Part shown: piece after piece, positions 3,477-60,419 of the stretch | Position numbering within the stretch: the stretch's first letter is position 1 | Layout: each line of letters starts with the position of its first letter | IMG/VR virus record: IMGVR_UViG_3300036791_000458 | Span: 1 to 64,000 of that record | Reading direction: 5' to 3' (one strand) | DNA: 64,000 nt | Source of the DNA: a virus | Position numbers and translations under genes: made by a program | Notes under the pieces: generated by a model | Databases searched by the model: none | Told to the model about the DNA's origin: nothing | Seen by the model: only the letters and a program-made list of their open reading frames with translations

Positions 3477-3482
3477 TTTAGT

Positions 3483-27794: not shown

Positions 27795-27801
27795 AAACCT
27801 C

Positions 27802-28467
27802 TTAGCTTGATATGTAGAATAAAATCGGTGATGGTGTTGCGACAACAGCTTGTTTGAATGCAGCTACAAACGCCATCACTTGATAGTCTGTAGTTGTTGG
27901 TGTAAAAGTACCAGTCGCAGCAATTCCAGTAGTGCTTGCATAAGCTAACATTTCTTCCATGTAGGCAAGTCCATCAGAAGTAGTAACGACTGAACTAAAA
28001 CCGGAACCGGGCGTGAATGTTCTACCACCTTGTCTAACCTCTGATGCGAAACCCAAAACTAAATCGCCAGACTGGGCAAGAACAGCAGTAGCACTCGAAG
28101 TCCAGTTTGGTGAACCCGGATCAAAACCATTATCTAGACCTGTTGCTTTATCCAACGGAGATGCGAGAGTACCAGAGTATTCTGCCACGATTAGTTCTGC
28201 CTGATTAAATGTAAACGTTGCTACAATACTAGTCACACCAGCGGGTGACGCCGGAAGAAAGTAAACACCAGCCAGAAACGGCGTTGTTAAATTTTTTGCA
28301 ATCGTTAAGCTGGTGCCTGAATTAGTTTTAACTGTAATTGCACCCGATGTTCCAAGAACAGTTAGATAAGCAACAATCAGACTATTTGCCTGCGAAGCAG
28401 TAATTGTTACAGTCAAGCTAGTTGCACCAGACGTAACTCCTGCCTTTTGTTGAACTCTAGTTGCCAA
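27802..28467 (-). CDS. Beta-rich structural protein, hypothetical
   Basis: 221 aa, probably from TTG 28467 that overlaps the stop of the upstream fibre gene (FGN-stop). Strand-rich with Ser/Thr/Ala-rich composition: [68 protein letters not shown]. The pattern (long alternating strands ending in MAFVAAFK) is common in uncharacterised soil-phage proteins. Placed between the two fibre genes, so probably a fibre accessory or adhesin. Confidence 0.65.
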
Positions 28468-31234
28468 ACCGTACTACCTCTCCACCATTCACGGTGTATA
28501 TATTGCTTGCTGATGCAACACTAAATGTACCTAGAAGAATTGGCGTTTGTTGAACTGTCATGTCAACCGCATTACTTACAACTTGCTCAATATCAAACTT
28601 CGGTGTATTCGCTGTACCAGTCGCAGCCTGAGCAACCATCAATTTACCGACACAACCGAAAATACCTGTCGTACCAATTGAACGACGAATGATAGTAAAT
28701 TCAACTTCCCAAGCATAACTGACTCCAGCAGTCGGAATCGTCTGAGCTGGAAACATAAGCAAGGTAGTAACACCTTGAATAGCTAACCTAATCTGGAAGG
28801 TTGTTGTAGAAGCTGCGAGATTAACTGTCCCGAAGGCGTGAATCTTCAAAAATCTTCCTGCAACGTCTAGGTATCCTGCTGGAATCACAATACTATACAA
28901 AGTTTGGTCACCAGTTGTATTTGCAGAAAGAGTTGAAGTCGTAATCTTTGCATCACGAACGTAAAGTGCTTGCGCGGAATCCAGTAGATCAGCATTTGTA
29001 TCTAAACCCGCGTAACCGCTGGGTTGATTTTTGTTAGCAGTTAATTCTGCGCCCGTTGTACCACCTGAACCCGAAGGCCCAGTATATCCGGTGTATCCAG
29101 TCGCGCCTTGACTTCCAGAACTTCCGGGAGCACCTTGGGCACCAGTGTAACCAGTAGCACCAGTTGCTGTCGCAGCTCCCGCTGATCCTGTATACCCGGT
29201 GTACCCAGTCGCGCCACCCTGTGCCATAACATTCCAGAACGATACGTTCGTCGGAACGTTACCAGTCGATGGAGCAATACAAATGTAACTACCATTTTGA
29301 TAGCTAACCGCGTCATTCACTCCATAGGTAGTACCACTAGCGTAAGCACCTCTCCAAGTTACAATTGGAATTGGACTACTCGGTGAGACAACCCCTGATC
29401 TTGTTGCAGCTAAAGTGATACTCACGTCTGATAGTGTGGTATCTTGAGTTGCGGGCGCAGTCACCGTCAATCTGTCACCCGGATTTAGCGTTACAGTTGT
29501 ACCACCCGTTGTGGTGAACGTGAAAACACCAGCAGTAGAAATTGCAATCGAACCTACTTGAGTACCATTTTTTTGAACAGTATAGGTTGCAGTAGCCGTG
29601 GGATTAGTTCCAACCGAACCTTTTGAGTTTGGAGTCGCGAAGTTCGCAGGAAACTGCATAGAAGTCGCGGCGGTATAGATCATCACCGACTGACTTGCAC
29701 TCGGTTTTCCTATGACTGCGGAAACCAAGTTACTAAAATTATCAGCCCCTAAACCAGTGAATCCGGTGTAACCTGTTGCACCAGCTATACCTTGAGGGCC
29801 AGTTGAACCCGTCGCTCCCGCTGGGCCTTGACTTCCCTGTGGGCCTTGAATACCTTGACTTCCCTGTGGGCCAGTAGAACCTTGTATACCTTGCGCGCCT
29901 TGTGGGCCTTGAATACCTTGACTTCCCTGTGGGCCAGTAGAACCTACAGAACCCGGTGCTCCCGGTGTTCCTTGAGCACCAGTGTAACCAGTATAGCCAG
30001 TGTATCCAGTCGGCCCCACAACGCCTTGTGTACCTTGAGCACCAGTGAAACCAGTGTACCCAGTGAAACCAGTTGCACCTATAGTTCCGGGAGTACCTTG
30101 AATACCAGTGTAGCCAGTGTAACCAGTGAAACCAGTGTATCCAGTCGCGCCCAAATTACCAGTTGTACCTTGAACACCCTGAGCACCAGTGTAACCAGTA
30201 GGCCCAGTTGAACCTTGAATACCAGAATTACCCGTGTATCCGGTGTAACCAGTATAGCCAGTTGAACCTATAGTTCCCGCGACTCCTGTATACCCGGTTG
30301 GCCCGGTAATTGCAGATGCGGGGCCAGTATAGCCGGTGTAACCAGTATAGCCAGTTGAACCTGTAGAAGACGCGCCACCCTGTGGCCCGGTGTATCCTGT
30401 CGCACCAGTTGCTGACGCGTTTCCTGCTGGGCCAGTTGTACCAGTATATCCGGTGTAGCCAGTCGAACCAGTCGCAGAAGCTGAACCTGCTGGCCCGGTA
30501 GTTCCGGGAGTACCTTGAATACCAGTGTAGCCAGTGTAACCAGTGAAACCAGTGTATCCAGTGAAACCCGTGTAACCAGTTACACCCGGAATACCTTGAG
30601 CACCAGTATATCCGGTGTAACCCGTGTAACCAGTTACACCCGGAATACCTTGTATTCCTTGGCTTCCGGTATACCCGGTGTAGCCAGTATATCCTGTAAC
30701 TCCCTGATTACCTTGAGCACCCTGTATTCCTTGACTTCCGGTATAACCAGTGTATCCAGTGAATCCCGTGTAACCTGTTACGCCTTGTGGCCCTTGTATT
30801 CCTTGACTTCCAGTGTAGCCAGTATATCCTGTAACTCCCTGATTACCTTGTGGCCCTTGTACTCCTTGACTACCTTGACTTCCGGTGTAACCTGTCGCGC
30901 CTTGTGGGCCTACCGGGCCTTGATTTCCCTGTACACCTTGAACACCTTGAACACCCTGATTGCCTTGAGCACCTTGTGAGCCTACCAAACCTTGTGGCCC
31001 TTGACTACCTTGTGGCCCTTGAGTGCCTTGAGCACCTACTGGGCCTTGTGGCCCTGTAGTTCCGGTAGTTCCGGCAGGGCCGGTGTACCCGGTATAACCT
31101 GTCGCACCAGTCGCACCACCCGAGTACGCTCCATCCAGAATATCCCAGTTCGCGTTAACCTGATCACCCCAGTCAAACGAATCGTTTGCAGGTTTGAAAA
31201 GGTTTAGATTAGGAGTTGTCGAACCTGTAGCCAT
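28457..31234 (-). CDS. Collagen-like tail fibre 2
   Basis: 925 aa. N-terminus [20 protein letters not shown] followed by [18 protein letters not shown] is the same attachment module as fibre 1. About 450 residues of collagen triplets mix GxQG-type units ([19 protein letters not shown]) with GYTG units. A beta-sandwich and [20 protein letters not shown] module match fibre 1. The C-terminal domain (about 780-925, ending [11 protein letters not shown]) instead matches the hydrolase-like protein at 22459. The two fibres therefore share stalk and middle modules but differ at the tip. Confidence 0.85.
29755..31125 (-). repeat. Tandem collagen-triplet coding repeats, fibre 2
   Basis: Main collagen block of fibre 2, with recurring units coding [19 protein letters not shown] and [14 protein letters not shown] short second block lies at about 29060-29220. 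Unit composition is more Gln/Val-rich than in fibre 1. Confidence 0.8.
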
Positions 31235-34867: not shown

Positions 34868-36871
34868 CTATTCTTCTTCTTCCTGACCGTCACTAAAAAC
34901 CGGAACTAGAATGCACCTGCACGATGGATGAGTATCTTCGATTGGAATCGGTGCTTCAGAAAAGTCATATGGATTGTCATCCTCAAAGTCCAAGCAAACT
35001 TCACAAACGTCAACCTCGTTGGTAGTCAAAAAATTTAGCTTAGCTATGTTTCCAGCTTCTTGCCACGCGAGAAAATTTGACTGTACCTGAGCGTTACCTA
35101 TTTCGGTTCTCGCGATATTTGCTGCTCGTTCCTCTGAGAAGGTTCCCGCGTCCTGAATCGCCTGAGTCACATCCTGTATCGATGTAGGCTCAGAGAATGC
35201 GTCGGTAATAATCCGGTTGATGTCTGACCGCGTAGTGTCTGAGATAACCCACTTTGCATTAGGATTATCTACTAGCTCACCGTCTACCCATTTCTTTCCG
35301 ACCATCTCTGCGGCTCTGTCTTGCGCGAACTGTTGGGACGCTTGATCCGCTGACGCTATCACGTCATTGTCTGTGATATTCAATTCAGTTATGCCTTTGT
35401 CTGCGCCAACGCTCGTAGCACTCTCTAAAGCATCTTGCGCGTCTTTTACTTCTTGGACTCCAGACTCAGAAATTATTGCGTCTTCTTCCGTCTCTCCCAC
35501 TTCCGCTAAAGTCTCACGAAGCGCGTCAGCGTTATCTTCCGCTTGTGTCAATAGTTCGAGTAGTTGATCATCGGTGAGAGGTGTTTGTGAAGTCGCCTGA
35601 GATACTAAACCATCTTGAAGCGGAGAAGGTAGCGCGTTATATCTATCTCCTGCGAGATTGAGTAGTCTCTGAACTACAGATGCTTGCATAGATGGTTCGT
35701 CTGCCTTGAATATTTTGCGCGTCTTTTTCACCCTGAGAGGTTTCAGTCTATCAATATGCTTACGAATGATGGAAAGAATTCTACCTTTTTGTTTCGCAAA
35801 GGCAGAAGAAACAGTATCTTGTAGCTTAGTCTGCGCGTCCGATAGCTGAGGATGCTTGTAGTCGGGATCAATCTTGATCTTATGTGCCTTTGCAATCGCG
35901 ACTTTCCTTGCGCGGTCACTGATTTTGATCTTCCTGATAGCGACTAACTTCACACGAGAAGGAACTATCTTGCGTATAGTCAAACCCTTGACAGGTACAT
36001 CTGCATCCACTTGCAGTTCATGTAAGAAGTCGCGACTCACTCTATCGCGAATTAGTGCCTTGTCTGGTATGTTCAATGAAGGGATTGCAAGAATCTGTAT
36101 TTTTTCAGGAGTAGTACCGCGAAAGTCTTTTAAGCTGCCAAATATGATAGTGTTTTGACCGCCACCCGCAGAATCTCTTCCCCACAAATAGGTGTTGTAG
36201 GAATCTTTGAGCACTGAGTCACGGTGTTCCGGAGTATCTTTGCCAACACTCATATTAACTTCGTAGTTTCTCCGGGCATTGTCTAACGCGCCATTTAAGG
36301 CACCAGCAGATAAACCACTACGTAGCTCATCTTCTCTCGCAAATTTCTCTATGGTAGAAAAATCTGGGTTATGAGCAAGTTCCGTCATCTGTTGGATGTC
36401 ACGCTGAATGTCCCGAGCATCATTTATGTTCGTAGTGAAGCTAACTGCTTTTGCCTGTCCCGAACTACCCAACCCGCCTTTATTGTCACTTGAACCTGCC
36501 TGCAATAAACCGGACTGTTGTATATCATCGCCATGAGAAGTCACGTGGTATAGTTCCGGGTACTTCACAACTGCTTCATCTTTGGACAAGGGGATGCCCT
36601 TAACTACAGAACCTTCCCCTTGTCCCGCTCGCCCAATCCACGTGTTATACGTTTCCCCCCACGACTTATTCTCTTTGATGTCGTCTTTGGTTGCATAGAC
36701 CTTTGGTTCATCTGATTCTGAAAAGCGACCATGATCATCACGTGACTGATCTTCGGAGTATTTTTTGACTGGGCGAGTAAGCTTAGTAGGTTTAGTGCGC
36801 GAAGATAAAGTAGGCAGACTTTCATCTGGTGGTGTCCAACTTCTAGCTATCAGTCTAGTTAAGTCTGCCAT
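34868..36871 (-). CDS. MuF-type head morphogenesis protein with N-terminal linker and ART-like domain
   Basis: 667 aa from ATG 36871, which shares bases with the upstream stop (TAATG). A cargo linker [14 protein letters not shown] lies at 37-50. Residues 105-290 begin [18 protein letters not shown] and contain [13 protein letters not shown], a pattern seen in ADP-ribosyltransferase-like domains (YHVT ... I-x-x-GL). Residues 515-660 are the Phage_Mu_F domain: [25 protein letters not shown] at 622-626 and HPSCRC at 648-653. MuF proteins sit at the portal inside the head and are classic carriers of effector domains (family knowledge). Confidence 0.82.
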
Positions 36872-39800
36872 TAACTTTTCTTCCAAGTTTTTGTACTGGT
36901 ATCGTAGTATCCAATTGGTTTGAGCGTAACTACCGTGGTAGGAATATCAGCTACGTGGAAATATGGATTCGGAACCTGACGAGTGCCCGTTACTTCATAT
37001 TCTCCCGAGACTATCGCTTCTGACCATTTGTAGCCAAACTCTTGCGCGTCTTCCTTTGACCACGGATTGTACCCGGACATTCTGGTGCCTTTCGGAAATT
37101 CGAAAACCGTTGGAATACCTTTCTGATTCTCCGGATCGTGATACGCGTATATTTGAACTTCTCCCACATCACCGCCACTTGTCGCAGTCAAAGGAAGTTT
37201 GAATGTATCTCCAACCTTCCATTGAATCTTTGCACCGTCATCAAACGCGTGAAATAGTTTCTCGTTCGAACCACCATGATCATTCGAAATATTATCTAAC
37301 ATCAAACCTACATCTTTTTTCTCCGGGTCACTTGCGAGTCCATCATACTTGAATCCGGGAATACCCATTTCCTGCGCGGAATACCCGGACATCCGGAAAC
37401 TAGTTCCATGAGACGAACCCCAGTACCCGCGCCCTACACGCGTGTGTGTATCTGCATCGTAGTCTTCTGCGGTGTATCCTGAACCGGATGACGATGTGAA
37501 TTGACCACCACCCGGTTCACCTGCCGCGACTCGCGCTTGATCTTCTGAGTACTTATTGATTGGCGGTTGCGGAATGAAGAGGTCACCTTTAAAAACAATT
37601 TGATCGGTGAACTTGTTCTTGCAGTATTCAAGTGTCTTTTCGTCGTTCAAGTACTTTTTGAATGCAGCTAAATGTCTTCCCTTCGGAGCATAGGCCATGA
37701 ATACGATGTCCGGCTCGCCATGATTAAATTCTTTAAAGGCAGTCTTGTTCCAATCGTGAGGCGCGTAGGTATCATCCCATTTTGAACGACTAGTCTCTAC
37801 GAATCCTGCCTTCGCATACAACTTGGGAAGCACAGTGTCAAAGCAATCTAGTTTGTTGCCACCATTCTGAACTGCTAAACTAAGCGCGGAATAGGCGACG
37901 CCTTTATTCCCGGAACCGGGAGTATTGAAAAGCGATACAATATCACCGTCATCTTTGATCGCAACTCCGCCCTTACCATTCTCGGTAACAAACAATCGCA
38001 TGTGCTCGTAGTCTTCTGGTGGATAGACGTATACAGAAGCACTAGCTGGATTCACAGCCTTAGATGCTTGAATAGCTGCGGTGAAAGCTACGGCCCGGTT
38101 ATCTCCTTGTAGTTCAAGGTAATTGGTTGGCGTTATACCCTTCGAAGAAAAGTCTTCATGTGCTTGTTTATTAGTTTCCCAAGGAATCGCGGCAACGTTC
38201 TGTCCTGCTACATTTACAGTCCGAATCCCTCTAACATTTCGTCCGTAAGCGTTGGATATTCCTTCTTCACTTCCGCTTTTATCTCTTCCAGTGTCTGCTC
38301 CGGAAGCGCGGGTGTCTTCGGTTGTGGATTGTCCGGCACTTGTTCCCCCTTCTGCTTCGAATCTTCCATGATAGTCACGTGCTTGGTCTTCTGAGTATTT
38401 CTTGACTGCGGTGCCAAGTTTAATTACTTCGCTCGTACCATCTGCTTTAGTAATCGTAAGAGAATCGATGAATACAGTTTGACCTGATAGAATCTGGTTG
38501 CCAACTAATTTTAAACTACCGCAATCAGGTTTCACGTAGGCGATAGTCATGTGAGGATGGAAATCAAACGTTGCAGGTTTAAAGTCTGCGTAGTCTGCGA
38601 CTTCCTGATTGATCTGCTCAAGTGGAGTTAAATCTTTTTCTAAGTCATCGCGCTTCTTCTTTTTCCCGTCTGTTTCAAGATTGTATGTGTTCAATCCTGT
38701 CTCGGTTGTTATACCGGAAGTAGTTGCGTCCTTGATCATGGCAGGTTCTTCGGCTGTCGCGAACGCTTTTTCTTTGAACTCTTCCATCGGCATAACGTCC
38801 ATCGACTGGAAGAAGTCAGGACTTGTGTAGTTATCCAAAAATGCTTTCTTTGCATCGGCTGCGGAGTCCCAACCGAGCATGACCTTGTCTTCGTCGTAGT
38901 CCCCAGTAGAAGGCTCCTTAGTATGAATAACATAAGCGAAAGCCGCGTCTTTACTTGGGCCAATAAAGCAGTCAACATGGTCACCGTCTACACCTTCTGT
39001 ACCCCGAATGTACCCGTAAGGGTACGTCATCGTTATAGACCAATGCTTACCGTCTTTACCGACACCTTCTCTAGTCGAACCCTTATCGGTTTCGATGGAT
39101 ATTTTCATCCCTTGGAAGTCAAGACGATCTTCTAATGGACGTTGTTTCTTAAGTTTTATTATGCTATGAGACGCGCCTGAGGCAAGCCACCTATCCGCGT
39201 TTTCTGATGCATCATCTCCCCGGAAGTTCCCGCGAATGACACCTTGCTGTAAAGACCGCTCACTGATAATAGTCGCTGTACTACTCTTAGGCCATAGCTC
39301 AATGATGATATGCTTACTTGTTACATGAGCTAGACCATCTCTCATGTGTTCTATGGTGCGCGGATCATCTTTCGCTCCTTGCATTCCTGCGATACCGTTC
39401 TCAGAAGTCACACGAATGTTGCCGTTATCTATCGCGTAGCCGACTATGTTTGAAGTCTCACCCGCGTTAACTGCAACTCTTCGAGATTGAGTACTGTCCA
39501 ACAAACCATTCTGTAGAGCAGAACGAGCATGGAATCCACCATTGTCCCGGTTAACGATAAACTCCCCGTCTTTGGTTATCCACCCTTCTGGCAGGATACC
39601 AATACTCGATAGTTTGACTGTGCCTTTTTCGCCGTGGCCTTCTTCTCCCGGATAGAACCCAGCAGGAGTTTCATCTTCACTCGCAAATCTTCCGTGGTCA
39701 TCTCTTGCTTGGTCTTCCGAGTACTTGAAAACTTTGTTAGTCTTTGGCGCACGAATCATGTAAGCATACTTACCATTATCACGACGATCAACTTCAAATC

Positions 39801-42495
39801 CAAATCCTCTGTAGAAATTTTCAAGCTGAGCCTTCTTAGGAGTAAAACCTTCGTTAGCACCTTGTCCGGGTAAAGGACGTGCCCATAGACTGACATATAT
39901 CCCATGTTTATCTGCTAGCTCAGTTACTCTATCCATCGCGGCTCTACCCGAACCACGCTCTTGAGCAGTCAACCAATGAATCTCCACTCCGGGTTTACTG
40001 GAGCTATACAAGTTATGAATATCTAACCCCGCTTGTCCTTTCGGTGTATCAAGATACATCCACGAGGTACTAGGACTCAACTTAAGCTCTTTTACATCCA
40101 ACTCTTTTTCAAAGGCATCAACGTCACCTTTAGGTGTAGATGTCTCACCACCACTTGTAAACCTGCCATGGTCATCTCTTGCTTGATCTTCTGAGTATTT
40201 TTTGATCTTCTTGATTCCGGGATTCCGCTCAAACATAGACGGAAGATAGCTTGTGACGTTAGGATGTAAAGCACCAGCGGGTGGTTCTGTGCCTTCGCGG
40301 AGTGCATTACGAATTGCAGTTGAACTAAACCCACCCGTTGTGGGACGGGGGGCATTGAAGTAATAGTGCCCTTCATGACTCGTTCCCTTGTCACCGGAAT
40401 AGATCGCTGGTGCCTTGGGTGGATTCGCACCCGGTGCTGAATCTTCTCCCGTGATAGTGACTATGGAAGTGTCTGGGTATTTCGATTGCAGGAAGTCTGC
40501 GGTATGTGTCCGCTTCAGTTTTCCTTCTATCTTGTCTGCCGCCTCCGATGGTTCCCCAGTCACTGTGACGTTTGGATGATTGACCGTATCCGAAGTAAAT
40601 GTACGACGAGCGAGTTCAACACGTTCATTCAGCGGATATGCTTTATCGCCCAGCTTCTTATCCACTAGTCTTTGTGGCGCGGGAACTACAACCACATTTT
40701 TGACATCATAGCCATTGTCTTTCATATGATTGAGCGCGTCGGTAACCGCTTGAACGTGTCCCATGTGAGGCGGATTGAAAGTACCACTGAATACTAGCGT
40801 GACTGGTTTGTCTGTCGATGGCGCGTCTTCACTCTCAAACCTACCATGATAATCTCGTGCTTGGTCTTCTGAGTATTTAGTGAGATTAGGCGAACTAGAA
40901 CCAATCTCAACTACCAATGGGCATGCCCAGTCTGAATTCTTCGATGGAGAAAAAGCAGTGATTCTTCCAGTAGTCACTTCGAATGGTTCAATCGACGCGA
41001 GATAGTCTCGCAAATCAGATATGTCAGCACCGGGTAGAATTCCATAGCGAACTGTGATATGTGGTTCGTCTTCTTTCCCCTCACCCATTACGTCGCTATC
41101 CGGAATCAAGTCCTGAATCGTTCGCAGTCCAAGTGCTACATTTGAATCTTGAGGAATGATCACCTGAACAAGTCCATAAGAGTGTGTTACCTCTCCGGTA
41201 ACAGGATCAACCGACTTGGAAACTTTGCCTTCTTTGTCGCCTTTGTCTTTTTTGTTTTTTTCTTCTTTCAGTCGCTGTCTTTCCTTTTCGATATAACGCT
41301 TTAAGTCCTCTACGTCTTCCGGTTCAGAGAATATATCGTGCTCGTCTCTGTACTTGTACTTCTTATCATCAGTCGCTTTCTTCATCCCCGATGTCTTTTT
41401 GACGAACTCATCCCATAGCTTCTGATCATGAATAGTCTCTTTGCCATTTTCTTTGGTGTAGACTAAAGTCCGGGGACGATTGATATTGCTATATAGAGTC
41501 GCGCCACTGACTTCATTCATGTCTTTCAGTCTCATGAAGTTTTCCGCGGCACCTTGATTGCTCGATCTGACTAATTCGAGCGGAACGAGACGACCATAAT
41601 CCTCATCTTTGGGATTCGCTGCTCTACTAAACATCCTTTCAATAGCAGTATCTACCGGAATATCAACGTAGGCGACATTGACTTTGTATCCTTCACCATT
41701 GAGATTCTTCACCATCGCTAGAGTAGTAGGTTTTGAACCCACTCCGTTGTAGATCAAATCTAGGTTCCGAGCAACTGAGCGTCCAAGTAAATCTTTGGAC
41801 ACGACTTTAGCTTCATCATACAAACGTGGTGCTGCGTTCTGAGGATCAACCATCCTGAGCTTTTCCCACTCTGGCAGTTGCTTTATCACGTTATCAGAAT
41901 CGATGTGAACTACATTCGGGTTTTTGCTCATCTCTCTAAACAAACTAGACTTGCCCGATGCAGTTCCACCACCTAAAATCGTCGCGACTGGCGGATCGCT
42001 TATAGGTACTTTTCCGGTCAAGTCGCTATTGATTATCTTTTCATGAAACTCTGCGCGAGATGGAACCCAACCCGATTCTTTCTTGTAGGTTTCCTTGGTA
42101 GTTTTATCTGATTTTGCGTCGAATCCTTCTCCACTCTCACCACCTGCGAACTGTCCACCTTCTGGTGAACCCGCTGGAACCCTTGCTTGGTCTTCTGAGT
42201 ATTTTTCAAAGAAGACTATCGCCTTACCAAACTTTTCTACCGCGTGAGTAGTTACAATACGCGCTCGTAGATATGAACCATTGAACACACTGGGTAGTGC
42301 TCGGAACCATTTCTCCGGAGTACCTTTCGCAGTTAGACTCTGGCCTTTGAACTTGATAGGATCATTCAAAAGGTTCGCCATCAAAACATGATAGTCCGGA
42401 GCGACGTTATCTGTTGAAACCTCTCCACCGTCCAGCAGAACTTTACCCGCGAGTAACTGGGCGTTGGGTTTAGTCACCAAGATTTCACAAGTCAT
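36871..42495 (-). CDS. Giant polyvalent cargo protein: kinase, split 2H phosphoesterase, NMNAT-like, GNAT-like, pyrophosphatase-like, ART-like
   Basis: 1,874 aa from ATG 42495 in a TAATG overlap (ATG 42504 is an alternative). Domains in order: N-terminal unknown (1-95); P-loop zeta-toxin-like kinase (170-350; GGGTASGKS at 175-183, IDSDN); 2H phosphoesterase first half (440-540; PHITVRYG, H479-x-T481); nucleotidylyltransferase (560-760; GTFNPPHMGH at 571-580, SSTAIR at 724-729); GNAT-like (790-915); unknown (950-1110); InPase-like (1115-1250; YPYGYIRGTEGVDGDHVDCF); capsid-arm-like peptide (1255-1274); 2H second half (1290-1360; HPHMTIAYV, H1315-x-T1317); GNAT-like (1420-1640); ART-like C-terminus (1680-1860). 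Six KYSEDQAR linkers at 98, 540, 766, 924, 1366 and 1648. Matches the polyvalent-protein concept of Iyer and colleagues. Confidence 0.85.
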   Translation of the reverse strand: MTCEILVTKPNAQLLAGKVLLDGGEVSTDNVAPDYHVLMANLLNDPIKFKGQSLTAKGTPEKWFRALPSVFNGSYLRARIVTTHAVEKFGKAIVFFEKYSEDQARVPAGSPEGGQFAGGESGEGFDAKSDKTTKETYKKESGWVPSRAEFHEKIINSDLTGKVPISDPPVATILGGGTASGKSSLFREMSKNPNVVHIDSDNVIKQLPEWEKLRMVDPQNAAPRLYDEAKVVSKDLLGRSVARNLDLIYNGVGSKPTTLAMVKNLNGEGYKVNVAYVDIPVDTAIERMFSRAANPKDEDYGRLVPLELVRSSNQGAAENFMRLKDMNEVSGATLYSNINRPRTLVYTKENGKETIHDQKLWDEFVKKTSGMKKATDDKKYKYRDEHDIFSEPEDVEDLKRYIEKERQRLKEEKNKKDKGDKEGKVSKSVDPVTGEVTHSYGLVQVIIPQDSNVALGLRTIQDLIPDSDVMGEGKEDEPHITVRYGILPGADISDLRDYLASIEPFEVTTGRITAFSPSKNSDWACPLVVEIGSSSPNLTKYSEDQARDYHGRFESEDAPSTDKPVTLVFSGTFNPPHMGHVQAVTDALNHMKDNGYDVKNVVVVPAPQRLVDKKLGDKAYPLNERVELARRTFTSDTVNHPNVTVTGEPSEAADKIEGKLKRTHTADFLQSKYPDTSIVTITGEDSAPGANPPKAPAIYSGDKGTSHEGHYYFNAPRPTTGGFSSTAIRNALREGTEPPAGALHPNVTSYLPSMFERNPGIKKIKKYSEDQARDDHGRFTSGGETSTPKGDVDAFEKELDVKELKLSPSTSWMYLDTPKGQAGLDIHNLYSSSKPGVEIHWLTAQERGSGRAAMDRVTELADKHGIYVSLWARPLPGQGANEGFTPKKAQLENFYRGFGFEVDRRDNGKYAYMIRAPKTNKVFKYSEDQARDDHGRFASEDETPAGFYPGEEGHGEKGTVKLSSIGILPEGWITKDGEFIVNRDNGGFHARSALQNGLLDSTQSRRVAVNAGETSNIVGYAIDNGNIRVTSENGIAGMQGAKDDPRTIEHMRDGLAHVTSKHIIIELWPKSSTATIISERSLQQGVIRGNFRGDDASENADRWLASGASHSIIKLKKQRPLEDRLDFQGMKISIETDKGSTREGVGKDGKHWSITMTYPYGYIRGTEGVDGDHVDCFIGPSKDAAFAYVIHTKEPSTGDYDEDKVMLGWDSAADAKKAFLDNYTSPDFFQSMDVMPMEEFKEKAFATAEEPAMIKDATTSGITTETGLNTYNLETDGKKKKRDDLEKDLTPLEQINQEVADYADFKPATFDFHPHMTIAYVKPDCGSLKLVGNQILSGQTVFIDSLTITKADGTSEVIKLGTAVKKYSEDQARDYHGRFEAEGGTSAGQSTTEDTRASGADTGRDKSGSEEGISNAYGRNVRGIRTVNVAGQNVAAIPWETNKQAHEDFSSKGITPTNYLELQGDNRAVAFTAAIQASKAVNPASASVYVYPPEDYEHMRLFVTENGKGGVAIKDDGDIVSLFNTPGSGNKGVAYSALSLAVQNGGNKLDCFDTVLPKLYAKAGFVETSRSKWDDTYAPHDWNKTAFKEFNHGEPDIVFMAYAPKGRHLAAFKKYLNDEKTLEYCKNKFTDQIVFKGDLFIPQPPINKYSEDQARVAAGEPGGGQFTSSSGSGYTAEDYDADTHTRVGRGYWGSSHGTSFRMSGYSAQEMGIPGFKYDGLASDPEKKDVGLMLDNISNDHGGSNEKLFHAFDDGAKIQWKVGDTFKLPLTATSGGDVGEVQIYAYHDPENQKGIPTVFEFPKGTRMSGYNPWSKEDAQEFGYKWSEAIVSGEYEVTGTRQVPNPYFHVADIPTTVVTLKPIGYYDTSTKTWKKS

Positions 42496-44483
42496 TAACG
42501 CCATGTGTGTGCTAGCTTTTCCCACTTATCGGTGTTCGCAAGTGTAAGAATTCTGTCTTCTACTCCCGCAATAGATTTTTCCGGTAGTCCAACTGCTCTT
42601 AGTCTTTCCTGAATCTTTGGCCATGCTTCCTGATAGGGTTCTGCGAAGTCTGCGGGAACGAATTTCTGAGCGCGGGGAGAATCGAAACGTTCGAATGCTT
42701 CATCAATGAACATTCCATTGCCACCCGAATCATACGGCAATCTATCGGGAAACGATAAACCATGATCGATCAGCTTTAGTTTTCCATTGTCAGAAACTAT
42801 CCAATTACCATTATGGCGATCTTCGTTACCGATGACGTAGTCAAAAGCCGCCGCTCTCGCTAAGTCTTCATTACCATCATATGCTTTGACATCCGGAAGA
42901 CTTCTTGCAACCTCACCATTCTGCCAATCGAGCACTACACCTTTCTCGCCATCAATAGTACGAATAGTAGCGGGAGCAACCATATCTGTCATACCTGCGG
43001 CTTTCGCGACTTCCCATGCGCCCGCCTCACGTGCTGACTGCTTACCGTCTGTAATCGCGTAACGCATTCCTTTCGCTTCACCACTGTCTGGTTTGAATAC
43101 GCCCTTGGTGCCATCGTCAAAGTAGACCACACGAGTATCACTGACACCGCCACCTAATTTCGACATACCTTCAATTGGAGTAGACACTAGATGCTTGTCA
43201 TAGTCTTCGGGAGTCGCGCCTACAAACGGTTTTGCTGCGTGTTCTAGGTCAGCGTCAGAACGAACAACAGGCATGAATTCGAGATTAACATCACCCCAAG
43301 ATTCGCCTCCCCCGCTCACAAATTGTCCACCACCCGGACTACCTGCTGGTACTCGTGCTTGATCTTCGGAATACTTGACTAGTTCAATTAACTTCGCCTT
43401 TGTCACCCGACCTACATACTTGACTGCTTTTCCACTATAAGTTCGCCATTCACCTAAACCACCCGCTGACAGACTGACACCCATAGCACCGGGTACTTTT
43501 TTGAACTCCAAGAGTTGAATCTGATCTTTGGGAGTCGATGCGAATGCCTTTAGGTCTGAGGAAAAGAAAAGTGGATTGAGTCTGCCACCCGCGTCTTCTC
43601 TCACTGCGGAAAACGTTTTGTAGAAGTCGAATGTGCGATTACGTAATTCATCTGCGCTCATTGGGCGTTCGAACGTATTGTAGCGCATCTTATCATCGCC
43701 GCCCATCCAACTGTAACTGTCTGAGCGCGGAGTCCAACCGGGCATGTCTTCTTCTGTCGCGCCACCAAACTTAGATGGACTCAACTCCTTACCATGAATC
43801 AAAGCGTCTAAACCCATTGGATATGGATCACCCGGATTCCAGTTAGGACTAGGCGCGACCTCAGAACTACCCCAACGAATCACATTCGTTAGATATGGAC
43901 TGGGCGCGCCTTCACCTTTTGTAGCTTGATCTAACATATCTTGAACGGAGATTTTCCCATTCGCGACATCATGTGCTTCTAACATCGCGTCCCGAATATC
44001 GCCACCAATTTTTGGATCAGCAGCAAAACTTATGCTCTTGTCATCACCACCACCTAATCCGGTTCCTTGTCCCATGTTTAGTTCGAAGCGAGACTTTAGT
44101 CCATTCGCGATTACAGCATCTGCGGCAGTAGTAACGTGATACAAAGGCACATCAGGAAGTGGTTGAAAAACTTTCCCGGATACATTGAGACCTGCACCAC
44201 GCGCCTCTGCCATTGCCGGGTCTAGTTTCCCTTCTGAAACTGCGGCAAGTGTTTTTTGTTCCCAGACTTGTTCTTTATCGCGCCTTTCCTGCCTCTGATC
44301 ATCCGTCTCATCGGGTTTCCATCCACCCGTGTATTGATCACGACTCATTGAAGCCGCGTCACCTTCACCAGAAAAGCGTCCATGATAGTCACGTGCTTGA
44401 TCTTCTGAATATTTCTTTAGACCATCATGCAGAATTACTGCGAACGGTATAGCTTTACTTCCGATGTTGGGAAACGAACTCAT
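42495..44483 (-). CDS. Cargo protein: ART-like domain plus PI3K/HipA-like kinase domain, two KYSEDQAR linkers
   Basis: 662 aa; ATG overlaps the portal stop (ATGA). Linker KYSEDQARDYHGRF lies at 24-37. Residues 110-365 hold an ART-like region starting LYHVTTAADAVIANGLKSRF, closely parallel to the MuF protein. A second linker KYSEDQARVPAGSPGGGQF lies at 370-388. Residues 430-650 form a kinase-like fold: VVYFDDGTKGVFKPDSG (nucleotide-binding Lys), IGNEDRHNGNWIV (catalytic D-x-x-x-N) and KLKLIDHGLSFPD (metal-binding Asp), the motifs of PI3/4-kinase-like and HipA-like enzymes. Placed directly after the portal; likely packaged and delivered (inference). Confidence 0.8.
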   Translation of the reverse strand: MSSFPNIGSKAIPFAVILHDGLKKYSEDQARDYHGRFSGEGDAASMSRDQYTGGWKPDETDDQRQERRDKEQVWEQKTLAAVSEGKLDPAMAEARGAGLNVSGKVFQPLPDVPLYHVTTAADAVIANGLKSRFELNMGQGTGLGGGDDKSISFAADPKIGGDIRDAMLEAHDVANGKISVQDMLDQATKGEGAPSPYLTNVIRWGSSEVAPSPNWNPGDPYPMGLDALIHGKELSPSKFGGATEEDMPGWTPRSDSYSWMGGDDKMRYNTFERPMSADELRNRTFDFYKTFSAVREDAGGRLNPLFFSSDLKAFASTPKDQIQLLEFKKVPGAMGVSLSAGGLGEWRTYSGKAVKYVGRVTKAKLIELVKYSEDQARVPAGSPGGGQFVSGGGESWGDVNLEFMPVVRSDADLEHAAKPFVGATPEDYDKHLVSTPIEGMSKLGGGVSDTRVVYFDDGTKGVFKPDSGEAKGMRYAITDGKQSAREAGAWEVAKAAGMTDMVAPATIRTIDGEKGVVLDWQNGEVARSLPDVKAYDGNEDLARAAAFDYVIGNEDRHNGNWIVSDNGKLKLIDHGLSFPDRLPYDSGGNGMFIDEAFERFDSPRAQKFVPADFAEPYQEAWPKIQERLRAVGLPEKSIAGVEDRILTLANTDKWEKLAHTWR

Positions 44484-54183: not shown

Positions 54184-55071
54184 CTATCCTATGGTTCCCT
54201 CTATAGTGTTCGGGTGATTCCCATTCCTACCTGTCCCGCCATTCCTCGTGGGATAGGTCTCATGTGGCACATTTCCATCAGTCAACTGGTGCACATTCAT
54301 CTGTCCGACATCACCATTGATAATCGCGTCTAGTACGTTGATAGTTACATTAGTTGGCTCCTGCTCTTCCTTAGGCATGAGTCTCTGCCACTTAGTCAAA
54401 AGAGTAAGCGCTTGAAGTTTGTCATGTAGTTTGAACTTAGTCCGCCTTACTTTGGTAAAAACTTTAACTCCATTGTTTACAATAGGTTCCCTCAACACTT
54501 CTTCCTCGCAGATAAGTTCTCCAATCGCAGCTGCTTGATTACGTGTGATATTTTGTAAATCAAATGACCATGATCCATCGGGATTGATCTGAATGTAATC
54601 GTACACATTGGAATAAGCGAGATTAGCGAGCTCTGATAGAGTCTTCTCAGCAGAAATTTCGAGGTGCCTAGACGCAACTTTAAGTACTCGATCTATCTCT
54701 TCTTTCACTCTGGGATTTTTCAGTAAGATAACCGAAACCTGCATAGGGTTCGAGTATCCTGCCTTCTGTGCCGCGGCTGTACCATTTAACTTGGGGTCTT
54801 CAACAAAGAACCGTACAAAAAGTGCTTGCCTAACGGTCAACTTACTTCCGGTAGCTCCACGTTTACCAAGCTTGATGAACTGATTGGAAATTTCCTGCTT
54901 TTTCTTGGTAGCTTTCGCAGTGGAATTCTGACGGGACTTCTTGGACTTCTCTCTTTTTTGGGGGGAGATAGGTTTTCCAGTCGAAAAGACTAAAGGTACA
55001 CGCGGGGGGACAGTCCTAACTTCTTGAGGCGTATTATCCATATAAACATTGGGGTGCCCATAACTAAACAT
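54184..55071 (-). CDS. terS: Terminase small subunit
   Basis: 295 aa. KLTVRQALFVRFFVEDPKLN followed by GTAAAQKAGYSNPMQVSVIL is the Terminase_2 helix-turn-helix pattern (L-T-x-R-Q-x-x-F-V, N-G-T-A-A-x-x-A-G-Y); a long C-terminal helix-rich part with VRRTKFKLHDKLQALTLLTK fits oligomerisation. A basic 60-residue N-terminal tail (KREKSKKSRQNSTAKATKKK) is longer than usual and may bind DNA. The start is uncertain (ATG 55071 or ATG 55041, no clear ribosome site). Recognises the packaging site; the repeats at 53.55-53.75 kb are a natural candidate. Confidence 0.82.
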   Translation of the reverse strand: MFSYGHPNVYMDNTPQEVRTVPPRVPLVFSTGKPISPQKREKSKKSRQNSTAKATKKKQEISNQFIKLGKRGATGSKLTVRQALFVRFFVEDPKLNGTAAAQKAGYSNPMQVSVILLKNPRVKEEIDRVLKVASRHLEISAEKTLSELANLAYSNVYDYIQINPDGSWSFDLQNITRNQAAAIGELICEEEVLREPIVNNGVKVFTKVRRTKFKLHDKLQALTLLTKWQRLMPKEEQEPTNVTINVLDAIINGDVGQMNVHQLTDGNVPHETYPTRNGGTGRNGNHPNTIEGTIG

Positions 55072-55230: not shown

Positions 55231-56490
55231 ATAGCTCAGACTCAGACTGTGACTATGACTTAAACTTTGACTGTAGCCGTCTTTGACTCCGACTTAGACC
55301 TTGTCCATGACTTCGACTGTAGCTTACGAACGTCTTTGGAACTCTATGACTTTGACCACGACCTTGCCTTCGACTGTGGCTACTGAGACTTTGGCATTGA
55401 AAAGGACTCGGCCTTTGACTGCGACTACGATTACGACTTCTTCAACTTCGACTTAGGCATCAACCGTGACTTTAACCTTGACTCCGGCTTCTAAGACTAT
55501 GCCTAAACAGGGACTCAAGCTATGACTGAGACTCCGTCTTCTTTGACTTCAACTACGACACCGACTTCGACACCAGCTATGGCCAAGTCCTTGACTTTAA
55601 CCTTGACTCCGGCCTCTGTGACTTAAACACTGCCTGGGACTACGACTTCAACTGTAGCTTCTACGACTTCGACATAGATATCGCCTTCGACTCTGCCTAG
55701 AACGTTGACTATGGCCTCTTTGACTAGAACATTGACCTCGTCTGTAACTCTGACTTCGGCACTCTTCGTCTACGGCAATGACCGGGTCTATAGCTGCGAC
55801 TCCAACTTCGGCTTCTTCGTCTTCAACCTAGACTGGGACTACGACTTCAACTGCGACTTCTTAGACTCAAACTTAAACATCGGCTATAACTCAAACTTTG
55901 ACACGGACTCAAGCGATTATGACTATGGCCGTGACTTGGACTCAGACTCCTGAGACTGCGACTTCGTCTACGGCAATGACTATAACTGTGCCTTGGACTT
56001 CGACTTCAGCTTCTGTGACTACGACACCGACTTTGTCCATAACTTTGACCGTGATTTATAACTAGACTACAACTCCGACTTTGACATTGCCCATGACCTT
56101 GACTACGACAGAAGACTACAGCTTCTGAGACTCGGACTGGGACTTCGTCTAAAACTCAAACTCTGACAGCGGCTGTGACCATGACTTTAACTGAGACTGT
56201 AGCTTCTCGGACTTAGACACAAACTTAGACCTCGCCCATGACAATAACCATGACTTCAACTGCGACTGTGACTCCAGCTTCTGCGACTAGGACATAAACC
56301 ACGACTTCATCTTAGACCGGGACTGCGGCTAGCTTCGACACGAGCTTTGACTTAGCCCACGACTATGCTTCAACTTTTTACGCGTAGACTTTGACTTGGC
56401 TTCAACTTAGTCATTGACTATGGCTTCTGTGACTAGGACTGTGACTGAATCATTGACACCGACTACGGCTTCTGAGACTATGACGTAAAC
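55231..56490. repeat. Hexanucleotide array, plus RRCTNY / minus GTCRNA, main block
   Basis: About 1.26 kb built of diverged 6-bp units, mostly GACTNY, AACTNY, GGCTTC and AGCTTC, with single-codon inserts after many GGCTTC units. A longer-range element GRCTTCT-N-N-GAC recurs about every 50-120 bp. On the minus strand the units read as RNA then GYY (V-x-V-x-A), but GTC-TAA and indels stop every frame, so no ORF above 60 codons exists on the minus strand. No gene seen; origin, structural RNA or sponge-type repeat are open options. Confidence 0.85.
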
Positions 56491-56491
56491 T

Positions 56492-56644
56492 TCACTTCGA
56501 TTCTACTTGCCTATTGTCTGCAAGAAGTAATAACGCTTCAAGTTCAAACTGCAATTTTAGTGTATCCGTGCCATCAACATCCTCACCATTCTTCTTACGA
56601 AGCAATTCCAAAAGATGTCGGGTTGCAGTAAAATCCATGATCAT
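56492..56644 (-). CDS. Small helical protein embedded in the hexanucleotide array
   Basis: 50 aa (MIMDFTATRHLLELLRKKNG, then a helix TLKLQFELEALLLLADN), with TGGAG 8 nt upstream of ATG 56644. Clean, non-repetitive sequence in the middle of the hexanucleotide arrays, so selection is maintaining it. Amphipathic helices suggest a small dimeric protein. Not recognised. Confidence 0.6.
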   Translation of the reverse strand: MIMDFTATRHLLELLRKKNGEDVDGTDTLKLQFELEALLLLADNRQVESK

Positions 56645-56654
56645 TTAGCTACTC

Positions 56655-56840
56655 CAATACTTTGACAGTGACTTAATCATAAGCACCGACATGGACTACG
56701 ACTGTGGCTTCTATGACTCAGTCATGGACTCGAACTAGGACTGTGGCAGCAACTTCAACCTTGACTATGACTCCGGCTTCTTCGACTTTGATCAAGGCTA
56801 TAACTTCAACCTAGACTGCGGCATCGGCTTCTTTGACTTC
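56655..56840. repeat. Hexanucleotide array, second block
   Basis: Same RRCTNY units fill the gap between the 50-aa gene and the 84-aa gene and run into the last codons of the latter, where the E-V-K-E-A-D-A-A-V C-terminus is spelled by array-like units. Confidence 0.75.
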
Positions 56841-57065
56841 GGGTTCATCAGGTTCATCGGTGAGAGTGACCTTGAAATATTCGCCACCTATCGAAAACAC
56901 ACGAGCGATATGTGATTCTTCTTCTGAAAGTGGTCTCCCAACTTCAATGCTAATGACAGGAGAAAAACCCTCGCTATAATCCGTTGCTTCCTTCACAAAA
57001 ACATCAAAATCGTTTTCCTCAAGATCATTACCTTCGAGCGGTATTTCAATCAAAAGTTTTTTCAA
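56811..57065 (-). CDS. Small acidic protein bordered by the hexanucleotide array
   Basis: 84 aa from TTG 57065, which has GGAGG five bases upstream; the ATG at 57077 overlaps that ribosome site. KKLLIEIPLEGNDLEENDFD, PVISIEVGRPLSEEESHIAR and FSIGGEYFKVTLTDEPDEPE give a compact acidic alpha/beta protein. C-terminus merges into the array. Not recognised. Confidence 0.65.
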   Translation of the reverse strand: MKKLLIEIPLEGNDLEENDFDVFVKEATDYSEGFSPVISIEVGRPLSEEESHIARVFSIGGEYFKVTLTDEPDEPEVKEADAAV

Positions 57066-57084
57066 GTTTGCCTCCATTTTCTTT

Positions 57085-57214
57085 ATCTTTGACTAAAACT
57101 GCGACTGAAACTGTGACTTAGACTCCGGCTTCTTCGACTGAAACTCGAACTCTGACACGAACCGTGACTTTGACTCAGGCTTCTTCGACTTTGGCTATGA
57201 CTTAGCTAAGGCGG
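57085..57214. repeat. Hexanucleotide array, third block
   Basis: Same units (for example GACTCCGGCTTCTTCGAC) fill the whole gap between the 84-aa gene and the ARPP-1-like gene. Confidence 0.75.
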
Positions 57215-58291
57215 TTACTGAATTTCTAAAATGGTCAAGTGCACCATCTGTCCGCTCATCTCCACCACTTCACCAACGTATTGCTTCGAGGTTAGTCCGA
57301 AGATTGCGACATGTGGCTCACCATTTGATGGTTTGTGCTCATAGATGAGATTGGTTTTAAAATCCATCGTCAGAACTTTTTTGACGGCCTCAACCGCGTG
57401 CTCGGGTTTGTACTCGAACACATTGGTTTTGTCTTCCCCTCTCAATAGTTCTGTGCCCATACGTTTGACCGCGTCTTTGTGGAGTGCTTCCCATGACAAC
57501 GGCACATCGAACAATTCGATAGTCTTGCACCCGGTGTAGGTAATCAGTGACAACCCACACTGGTTTTCATGCAGGCGTGCCTTGGAAAGAATGTCATCGA
57601 AGTTCTGCGAGAAAGCATCGAAGTTATCCTTGAGATTATCCTGTCTAAAAGAAGAAAGAGGCGGCTGTTCCTCGGGAATTGATACTGACGAACCGAATAT
57701 TCCGCTAGAACGAGATGTGAATGTACGACGAACACCCGGAACACGTCCGGAGATATCCGCGCTCACTCTTTCACCACCCATCATGGCGTTCATGGTTGTA
57801 GTGGTTTTGGTTACGTTCTCCCAAACCGTATGTTGATCTGCTGGAGTGAACCCCGCTGTGTAGCTCGCGTTCTCAACCGCAATTGGAACGGTGCCACCGT
57901 ACTTGAAATTGCTTCCAGTACGAATACCATGACTCGCGTGAACACACCGAGCATCAAGCGCAACCTCAGAGTTAGGAAACAACACCGCGCTTCTGGTAAT
58001 GATTCTGGACTGGGTTCCCTTGCCTTCGAAGATGGTTCCGGAGCGAAGGAAGACGTTTTCTTTCCCAGTGTTTTTGATATTGATTTTGTTGATCATGCCA
58101 CTGTCCGTAACAATGACGTTTTCTGTCTCTGGCATGGTGACATACTGACGGACAAAAGTGGTTTCCCGAAGGATTGGAAGGATACAAGCTAAGGATTTCT
58201 CGGATGGACGATCTGGTTTTCCGAATGAGAAACCCAACTTCTCTTCTGCTACTGCAAGAAGAACTGCCTCTTTGCTAAGAGTTTTAGCCAT
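57215..58291 (-). CDS. ARPP-1-like protein
   Basis: 358 aa from ATG 58291 with AAGGAG 6 nt upstream. The core (INKINIKNTGKENVFLRSGT, IFEGKGTQSRIITRSAVLFP, NSEVALDARCVHASHGIR) follows the ARPP-1 domain pattern: paired strands, a G-x-x-Q-x-R-I segment, a hydrophobic strand with P-N-S-E-V and a conserved Cys. ARPP-1 was named for its association with ADP-ribosylglycohydrolase and phosphatase genes (family knowledge, from memory), so a link to ADP-ribose or NAD metabolism is plausible. A middle Ser/Arg-rich region separates it from a C-terminal alpha/beta part. Confidence 0.6.
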   Translation of the reverse strand: MAKTLSKEAVLLAVAEEKLGFSFGKPDRPSEKSLACILPILRETTFVRQYVTMPETENVIVTDSGMINKINIKNTGKENVFLRSGTIFEGKGTQSRIITRSAVLFPNSEVALDARCVHASHGIRTGSNFKYGGTVPIAVENASYTAGFTPADQHTVWENVTKTTTTMNAMMGGERVSADISGRVPGVRRTFTSRSSGIFGSSVSIPEEQPPLSSFRQDNLKDNFDAFSQNFDDILSKARLHENQCGLSLITYTGCKTIELFDVPLSWEALHKDAVKRMGTELLRGEDKTNVFEYKPEHAVEAVKKVLTMDFKTNLIYEHKPSNGEPHVAIFGLTSKQYVGEVVEMSGQMVHLTILEIQ

Positions 58292-58347
58292 GTGGTACTC
58301 CTTTTGTTCACGGATTCTTCCGTGTATACACATGTGTACTACCTAAC

Positions 58348-58816: not shown

Positions 58817-59172
58817 ACTACTCTCCTGTCAATCAGTCAAAACATCGTCATAGTCGGAGCGTTCTCTAAGCTCCATTTCCTCTGCTGGTACTGACGGTAA
58901 ACGTCAGATGGCGAAGGTCGTCAAGCGCGGGAAGGTGTACGGGTTCCGGGACGGTATTGTCCACCCACACGAACTAGCTTAGTATAGCTCATAATTTTCC
59001 CCCTTTGGAATTACGTTCTGAATAAATATACTTCGACTTAGGCGGCGTCGTAGTCTGAGCCTGTGACCGTGACTTAAAAAAATGGACTACTCCCCAACGA
59101 CAGAGAGTAGTCCCGAGTTTATCCGTACCCGGAAGGATTTCGGATAAGCAGCCTCAACCATGAGCAAACCTG
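58817..59172. other. 356-bp gap with hairpins and no clear gene
   Basis: Contains a 6-bp hairpin CTGACG/CGTCAG (58891-58907) immediately followed on the plus strand by a 24-codon ORF (58908-58982) with no ribosome site, a short patch of array-like hexamers at about 59030-59075, the terminator at 59076-59113 and a second 7-bp hairpin TTATCCG/CGGATAA (59119-59147). Confidence 0.6.
59076..59113 (-). terminator. Intrinsic terminator after the 237-aa gene
   Basis: Perfect 9-bp stem GGACTACTC/GAGTAGTCC with a 12-nt loop, followed on the minus strand by A then seven U. Classic rho-independent terminator. Confidence 0.88.
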
Positions 59173-59886
59173 TTATTCTGCTTCTGCTTTTTCTTCGCCT
59201 TCAACTTCTTCGTCGTCTTCTGGAACGGTGACCTTTGCTTTCTTGGGCGCGGGAGTCAGATAGTCCCAACCCGCGACTTGGAACCGTCCATACCCTTGAG
59301 GACGAGCAGAACCGATACCAATCTGTTTCCCGCCCCATTCGATCAGCTTCTTCAAATCGTCGGGCAGGATGATTTCCTCATCAACAGAGAACACGCCCCG
59401 GGCAATGAAGTCATCGATGTAGAAACTGGAGCACCAGTTCCGCTGGTTGGACGTTTCCATTTTGACGAAACGTTCAAAGAGCTTCGCGTCAGCGACAGTC
59501 TTCTCGGTGACCATCATTTTGTCCGCTATCTTGACACCGATGAACGTCAAACCCTTGTCAGACACACGCGGAATCGCTTTCGGCGCTTGCATCGACGCAT
59601 TGTTGATGAAACTCTGAATGATTCGTTCCGGGATTGCGATCAGACCTTCACGCGTGCCGTCCACGGTGTAGAAGGGACGTTCTGCTTTTTTCTGCATGTC
59701 TTCGTAGTTCTCTTTGGTGAGACCACGTTTTTCGAGCGCAGCGAGCAGAGCCTGCTCTTTTTTGCTCGCGCCCAGTTTGGGGTGAACGTCTTTGCTGATG
59801 TCGATGATTGTATTACGCTCGGGCCAGTAAGGCAATCCGATGTAACCGGAACCATTGAAGTTAAACGCGACTTGAACTTTAACCAT
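59173..59886 (-). CDS. Unknown early protein with RAMP-like glycine-rich loop
   Basis: 237 aa. VKVQVAFNFNGSGYIGLPYW at the start and KQIGIGSARPQGYGRFQVAG near 195-214. The G-x-G-x-x-R-x-x-G-Y-G-R-F loop resembles the glycine-rich loop of RAMP/Cas7-like RRM folds, but no other Cas hallmark or CRISPR array is present. A highly acidic C-terminal tail (EDDEEVEGEEKAEAE) resembles DNA mimics or ssDNA-binding proteins. It has its own terminator downstream, so is probably expressed strongly. Function unknown. Confidence 0.6.
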   Translation of the reverse strand: MVKVQVAFNFNGSGYIGLPYWPERNTIIDISKDVHPKLGASKKEQALLAALEKRGLTKENYEDMQKKAERPFYTVDGTREGLIAIPERIIQSFINNASMQAPKAIPRVSDKGLTFIGVKIADKMMVTEKTVADAKLFERFVKMETSNQRNWCSSFYIDDFIARGVFSVDEEIILPDDLKKLIEWGGKQIGIGSARPQGYGRFQVAGWDYLTPAPKKAKVTVPEDDEEVEGEEKAEAE

Positions 59887-59954: not shown

Positions 59955-60419
59955 CTACGGGAGTCGGTCTAGTAGCTCAGGACGATTTCTCTTAAGCCAC
60001 CTTTTCAATGCTTTAAGTTTGTACAAAGTCCGTCTACCAGACCGTTCAACGGGGAATGATGAGTTCAACAGTCTCCATCCGGAAACTGTTGCTGGAGGCA
60101 CATCCAACATTCTCAATAACATGTCCAACGTAACCAAGTCAACACTCCGCCGAGAAAACACGTTTTCAATTTTCTGATCGGCAACCTCATTGTGAGTTAT
60201 CCAACCCGTCTTAGTTCCATACGGGCGCCGGAATTCAATCCAAATGCGGTAGCTATTTAAAACTTCGACCATCCCATAAATCGGATGCTTGATCTGGCCG
60301 AGTTCATCACAGCGAATCCAATCCTTCTTTCCATCCGGGCGTAAAAATTGAATCCAGAGATAACCTCGCTTCAAAACTTTTACCATTCCAAAATCGGGGT
60401 GCTTAATCTGATCACTCAT
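59955..60419 (-). CDS. Tandem-repeat protein with C-terminal helix-turn-helix
   Basis: 154 aa. Two copies of a 38-residue unit (IKHPDFGMVKVLKRGYLWIQ... and IKHPIYGMVEVLNSYRIWIE...) form an SH3-like or KOW-like beta module, followed by a MerR/excisionase-like helix-turn-helix (LDMLLRMLDVPPATVSGWRL, SGRRTLYKLKALKRWLKRN). Likely transcription regulator or DNA-binding protein of the early region. GAGAGGAAAC ribosome site. Confidence 0.65.
   Translation of the reverse strand: MSDQIKHPDFGMVKVLKRGYLWIQFLRPDGKKDWIRCDELGQIKHPIYGMVEVLNSYRIWIEFRRPYGTKTGWITHNEVADQKIENVFSRRSVDLVTLDMLLRMLDVPPATVSGWRLLNSSFPVERSGRRTLYKLKALKRWLKRNRPELLDRLP

Follow-up and report, generated by a model that had tools for sequence, protein, structure and literature searches.

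A phage hexanucleotide array best read as the RNA guides of a six-base form of the VIPR system

Introduction

Why does a phage genome carry about two kilobases of a hexanucleotide array in the gaps around two small genes? The array is located in IMG/VR virus record IMGVR_UViG_3300036791_000458, a record of 76.5 kb with terminase and head genes. We analyzed positions 1 to 64,000 of this record, here termed the window; the phage itself is termed G000. An initial annotation, made from the sequence alone, placed the array at 55231-57214. It described RRCTNY units confined to the intergenic regions, with inserts that tend to be triplets and faint traces near 59.05 and 59.93 kb, and proposed a structural RNA, a protein or small-RNA sponge, a replication origin, or a repeat spreading from a V-x-V-x coding end. 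Our analysis instead points to VIPR, a relative of CRISPR that viruses use against one another and that a 2026 preprint described as its possible forerunner (PMC13142463). In VIPR, a RAMP protein termed Vipr works with guide RNAs (vrRNAs) made of five-base YNNGG repeats. The NN pairs of the repeats pair with DNA while GGY does not, and the target is read with a 1-base skip.

Results

The array is a run of hexamers interrupted by a recurring nonamer

The array described in the initial annotation was confirmed. Autocorrelation had been suggested there as a test of the 6-bp period, and lag-6 identity was found to be 0.49 in 55231-56500, 0.46 in 56640-56840 and 0.52 in 57085-57214, compared to 0.267 over bases 1-50000. 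GACT occurs 20-30 times per 500 bp in the main block, against a mean of 3. The features of the region, all on the minus strand, are as follows.

54184..55071 (-), terminase small subunit, one border of the array (phrog_51, E 4.7e-23)
55235..56495 (-), main array block, read as tandem vrRNA guides
56492..56644 (-), 50-aa gene inside the array, conserved at the same place in the related phage G001 (64% over 33 aa)
56661..56842 (-), second array block, between the 88-aa and 50-aa genes, running into the last codons of the 88-aa gene
56811..57077 (-), 88-aa gene inside the array region, with array-like last codons; a 40% identical homologue lies elsewhere in G001, not in its array
57087..57206 (-), third array block, between the ARPP-1 gene and the 88-aa gene
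57215..58333 (-), ARPP-1 domain protein, the other border of the array (PF20208, E 6.9e-21)
59030..59078 (-), short guide-like stretch just downstream of vipr
59084..59113 (-), terminator-like hairpin after vipr, a 13-bp stem followed by ATTTTTTT (consensus match only)
59173..59886 (-), vipr homologue, 237 aa, with a RAMP-type glycine-rich loop GIGSARPQGYGRF towards the C-terminal end
59955..60419 (-), helix-turn-helix protein directly upstream of vipr, candidate accessory (vap) gene

A hidden Markov model read on the minus strand, the gene-coding strand, resolved the window array into 224 hexamers NNAGTY and 22 nonamers NNAGAAGCY, of which two or three nonamer calls are at block edges. Position 4 is G in 97% of the hexamers and position 6 is C or T in 99%, while positions 1 and 2 are nearly free. 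The triplet inserts of the initial annotation are one recurring element, the nonamer. It interrupts the array every 6-9 units, most often after 6-8 hexamers, giving super-units of most often 45, 51 or 57 bp. Several super-units in the window are longer, apparently where a nonamer was lost. Strict runs were found only at this locus in the 76.5-kb record and in one orientation (21 reverse, 0 forward, 0 in the backward control). The trace near 59.05 kb scored 26.6 bits at 59030-59078. Since shuffled sequences reach 22.5 and another site at 19.1 kb scores 26.1, the score alone does not establish it, but its NN message is shared with G001. The trace near 59.93 kb was below threshold.

The array was found not to be coding. 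Stop codons are not depleted in the V-x-V-x frame (TAA 28 against 27.8 expected, TGA 17 against 8.7), stops are present in every frame, and occasional five-base units break the triplet frame. Units next to each other are no more alike than distant ones, so there is no sign of recent slippage. A search of Rfam gave no hit, a blastn search with the array in phages gave none, and the array RNA folds no better than shuffled sequences (z +1.4). Other viral and bacterial contigs with GACTNY-type runs were also inspected. These were mostly coding repeats or unrelated simple repeats, and none had this architecture. They include a non-coding tandem array of units like GAGTCATAGAAGC in Viridibacillus soli (contig L136, about 3480-3830), which has stops in all frames of the array strand and for which a link to Vipr was not looked for, and an array of GTAGTC/GTAGGTC units with stops in every frame in an IMG/VR contig (L025:231-480). 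The units of the latter are near-identical, and it is probably an ordinary simple repeat. Long runs of 9-bp repeats (ACCAGTGTA type) at 24405-31234 of the window lie inside large tail-like ORFs and are probably collagen-like G-x-y coding repeats.

Elsewhere in the window, 36871-42525 (-) encodes a 1884-aa polyvalent protein with inorganic pyrophosphatase, zeta-toxin-like kinase and cytidylyltransferase-like domains. Beyond the window, at record bases 67341-69065 (L140:7341-8048 and 8634-9065), two proteins look like QueE and QueD by motif reading, without a family search, suggesting 7-deazaguanine DNA modification in this phage.

A related phage has the same layout

The initial annotation had named comparison with related phages as a check. 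Using the ARPP-1 gene as anchor, we identified two related contigs. The first, G001 (93 kb, ARPP-1 88% identical), has the same array type between ARPP-1 and the terminase small subunit, with the same 50-aa gene embedded and with 234 hexamers and 28 nonamers. The second, G002 (ARPP-1 62% identical), has neither array nor vipr. Misassembly had been put forward as one outcome that would overturn the observation; it is unlikely, because G001 comes from another dataset and has the same architecture. Searches with the terminase gave no further close relatives.

The gene at 59173-59886 encodes a Vipr homologue

The protein encoded at 59173-59886 was found to hit PHROG 4652 (E 2.6e-6). Its glycine-rich loop GIGSARPQGYGRF is RAMP-like, and a phmmer search of the PDB gave a weak match (E 1.4) to the SUSP1 Vipr protein, 36pp, which led to the VIPR preprint (PMC13142463). 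Vipr of Escherichia phage SUSP1 (KT454805; L146:28474-29061) hits PHROG 4652 at E 1.4e-96, the same family that the window protein had hit before VIPR was considered. Profile-profile comparison by hhalign gave a probability of 94% (E 1.4e-7). An HMM of 26 other Viprs, built without the window protein, ranked this ORF first of 2,394 ORFs of three phages (E 1.1e-9), covering HMM positions 29-185 of 186; the G001 homologue was found at 1.9e-9, and the next, non-Vipr ORF scored 1.1. In an alignment with 11 other Viprs, the loop residues G190, R195, P196 and G200 are invariant. Two AlphaFold models were too poor to use (pLDDT 32 and 34), so that whether the protein has the RRM core, glycine-rich loop and thumb of a Vipr structure was left undecided. 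No close relative of this Vipr was found in annotated phages, plasmids or 396 genomes of another phylum.

The helix-turn-helix protein upstream of vipr is present in both phages, and its HTH half is 41% identical to the protein at the same place in G001. Its matches to PF12728 (E 0.0048) and phrog_668 (E 0.0032) are both weak, and its PHROG hits differ from those of SUSP1 vap1. These observations do not settle whether it is a vap gene. No cas genes were recognized beside the array, where the neighboring genes are ARPP-1, small ORFs, HTH and terminase, and no initiator or ParA/ParB-type gene was recognized among the neighbors scanned.

We surveyed the surroundings of some 25 other Vipr loci from phages, IMG/VR contigs and 14 of 398 Pseudomonadota genomes. 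Most carry GGY/NN arrays, and clear arrays have the published five-base period, which was seen in nearly all other Vipr loci examined. One locus, L176, shows no array within its flanks. The IMG/VR contig L164 (3300031992_001637) and its twin L165 (3300028833_000421) have an irregular, compact five-base array (L164:3555-4140, same sequence in L165) in which GGTCAGNGGT, read by eye, recurs about every 65 bp, a possible analogue of the nonamer boundary. Only G000 and G001 have the six-base AGYY/NN form. The repeats lie on the same strand as vipr in SUSP1 and in the window.

NN pairs are conserved between the two arrays while the scaffold is not

Compared as whole hexamers, the arrays of G000 and G001 showed no sharing. 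Compared as NN pairs alone, they share 11 exact runs of 5 or more units (11, 9, 8, 7, 6, 6, 6, 5, 5, 5, 5) against 0.31 in shuffled arrays, and 7 runs of 6 or more against 0.025. The order is not the same in the two phages. In the 61 matched hexamer pairs the scaffold positions agree at 0.59, 0.64 and 0.70, where chance gives 0.58, 0.66 and 0.62. Four-fold degenerate codon sites of vipr and ARPP-1 are 0.64 and 0.71 identical; the terminase small subunit was not used in this comparison. The runs were found by NN identity, so the 100% identity within them is partly by selection, whereas the excess of runs over chance is not. Thus, over a time in which neutral sites drifted, whole NN messages were kept while the scaffold was free within its letter classes.

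A further message, AC-AC-TC-TA-GC-TA, is shared by the short stretches downstream of vipr in both phages (window 59030-59078 and L145:6045-6083 of G001), with different scaffold letters. In G001 an array-like stretch (L145:5668-5713, 37.3 bits) starts right at the vipr stop codon, while the same place in the window is still coding. Counted by hand, 8 of the 14 starts of the seven longest shared runs in the two arrays fall exactly on a super-unit start, where about 1.6 are expected, so the nonamer looks like a guide boundary. Two different guides in each phage end in the same five pairs AT-GA-TA-TG-TA (L122:7460-7527 and 7335-7391; window 56277-56203 and 55913-55857). This is unexplained, but could reflect two variants of one target or a functional ending.

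Search for targets

NN composition fits sense codon positions 1 and 2 better than any other phase in both arrays, as expected if the skipped base is the codon wobble. A search for targets in G000, G001 and G002 with skips of 0-4 bases gave no clear target. The 1-base skip was slightly enriched (13 and 7 hits against 5.2 and 1.65 in shuffles), but the reversed control at skip 3 gave 9 and 6, almost as much. Whether the guides match foreign DNA with a 1-base skip was left open by these searches. The shared guides do not match these three genomes. A scan of IMG/VR with 9 NN pairs of the longest shared guide returned one sequence in two contigs, which is out of the reading frame of its gene and does not extend to the remaining pairs, and is hence attributed to chance.

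Discussion

With high confidence, the array is best explained as a multi-guide vrRNA array of a VIPR system with about 20-25 compact guides. In this view it would be transcribed on the minus strand, the same strand as vipr, and the transcript would be bound by the Vipr homologue with one subunit per hexamer, AGYY being the protein-gripped scaffold and the NN pairs being exposed. Successive NN pairs of each guide (most often 7-9 pairs, 14-18 letters) would base-pair with spaced positions of a double-stranded DNA target, and binding would repress genes of competing phages or satellites. The nonamer would mark the join between guides and probably replaces the long 3' tail of SUSP1 vrRNAs. The structure of the array, its non-coding nature, the Vipr homology, the co-occurrence of protein and array (both in G000 and G001, neither in G002) and the conservation of NN messages over scaffold rest on our own data, whereas transcription, Vipr-RNA binding, DNA targeting and repression are inferred from the published system. 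Neither array expression nor co-purification of vrRNA with Vipr was measured, and neither the host, the targets nor the target spacing read by a six-base guide was identified. The period of 6 rather than 5 and the absence of a long 3' tail also count against this explanation.

Other explanations are considerably less likely. An array decaying or silent in this phage would fit the less regular super-units of the window compared to G001, with several doubled lengths and fewer nonamers, and the lack of a target. This is unlikely, since G and the pyrimidine at position six are kept at 97% and 99%, NN messages are kept over a distance at which neutral sites are only 67% identical, and vipr is intact with codon positions 1-2 96% identical to G001. 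A binding array for a DNA-binding protein (replication origin, partition centromere or packaging site), with AGTC as the repeated site, agrees with the single orientation and with the location just upstream of the small terminase gene in both phages. It is very unlikely, as NN letters between sites would be free, yet runs of up to 11 NN pairs are shared with G001 while the core letters drift, and the nonamer phase and the Vipr homologue are left unexplained. The units share only AGYY and are not the near-identical iterons of an origin or centromere, and no initiator or ParA/ParB-type gene was recognized among the neighbors scanned.

An RNA sponge for a host RNA-binding protein reading a short motif at regular spacing (Hfq ARN or TRAP NAG type) would fit the regular AG-containing units and the poorly structured RNA. 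It does not explain the conservation of the variable letters, the linked Vipr homologue or the five-base equivalents at other Vipr loci, and is regarded as highly improbable. The same holds for a coding repeat grown out of a gene end: the 88-aa gene ends in array-like codons and the RNA-GYY frame would encode x-V-x-V, but this reading is contradicted by the undepleted stops, the frame-shifting five-base units and the lack of similarity between neighboring units. A structural RNA is disfavored by the folding result. The interpretation in the initial annotation was thus only partly supported. It was right that the array is regular, intergenic, non-coding and unlike an origin iteron or a decayed gene, and that it may well act as RNA, but none of its four proposed functions is the best answer, and the key gene, vipr, lies outside its coordinates.

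It is somewhat more likely than not that this is a distinct VIPR type, whose Vipr grips six instead of five RNA bases per subunit with its own reading rule, and which keeps a CRISPR-like compact array of 20-25 guides delimited by a 9-base element. Some guides would persist for long times under purifying selection on the NN letters while others are replaced and the order is shuffled. A six-base version tests which features of the five-base code are essential. Six is also the backbone period of Cas7 in CRISPR, so this may be an intermediate worth placing on the RAMP tree. Two related phages that share messages but not scaffold give evidence, from natural sequences and independent of experiment, that the NN letters carry the information. 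A small Vipr with many compact guides would also be a useful multiplex DNA-binding tool.

Comparison with known systems

The closest described system is VIPR type II of phage SUSP1 (PMC13142463). Both have a Vipr RAMP protein in a phage, non-coding tandem repeats on the vipr strand near the gene, a conserved R-G-Y scaffold alternating with NN pairs, and several guides. SUSP1 has a DNA-binding accessory gene next to vipr, for which the helix-turn-helix gene here is only a candidate. The window differs in the six-base unit NNAGYY instead of five-base YNNGG, in having most often 7-9 NN pairs per guide instead of 9-16, in about 20-25 guides in a compact region instead of four separate vrRNAs, and in a 9-base boundary element instead of a structured 3' tail. 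Its Vipr is about 20% identical and longer, and the array lies about 2 kb from vipr. We therefore place the system with VIPR by its protein and its alternating array, but not in type II. VIPR systems are encoded mainly by phages or proviruses, and this record, with its terminase and head genes, agrees with that. The main text of the preprint speaks of pentanucleotide repeats but refers to 'a related consensus' in its supplement (fig. S17), which our comparison did not cover, so that a six-base consensus may already be listed there.

The array of L164/L165 likewise has many short guides packed after a vipr gene with a short recurring element, but its units are of the five-base GGY/NN type. Class 1 CRISPR-Cas, with its Cas7 backbone on crRNA, also has a RAMP protein on a repetitive RNA, a six-base periodicity of backbone contacts and a compact multi-guide array. 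In the window no cas genes were recognized and there are no identical repeats separated by unique contiguous spacers; the guide letters come in pairs inside every repeat unit.
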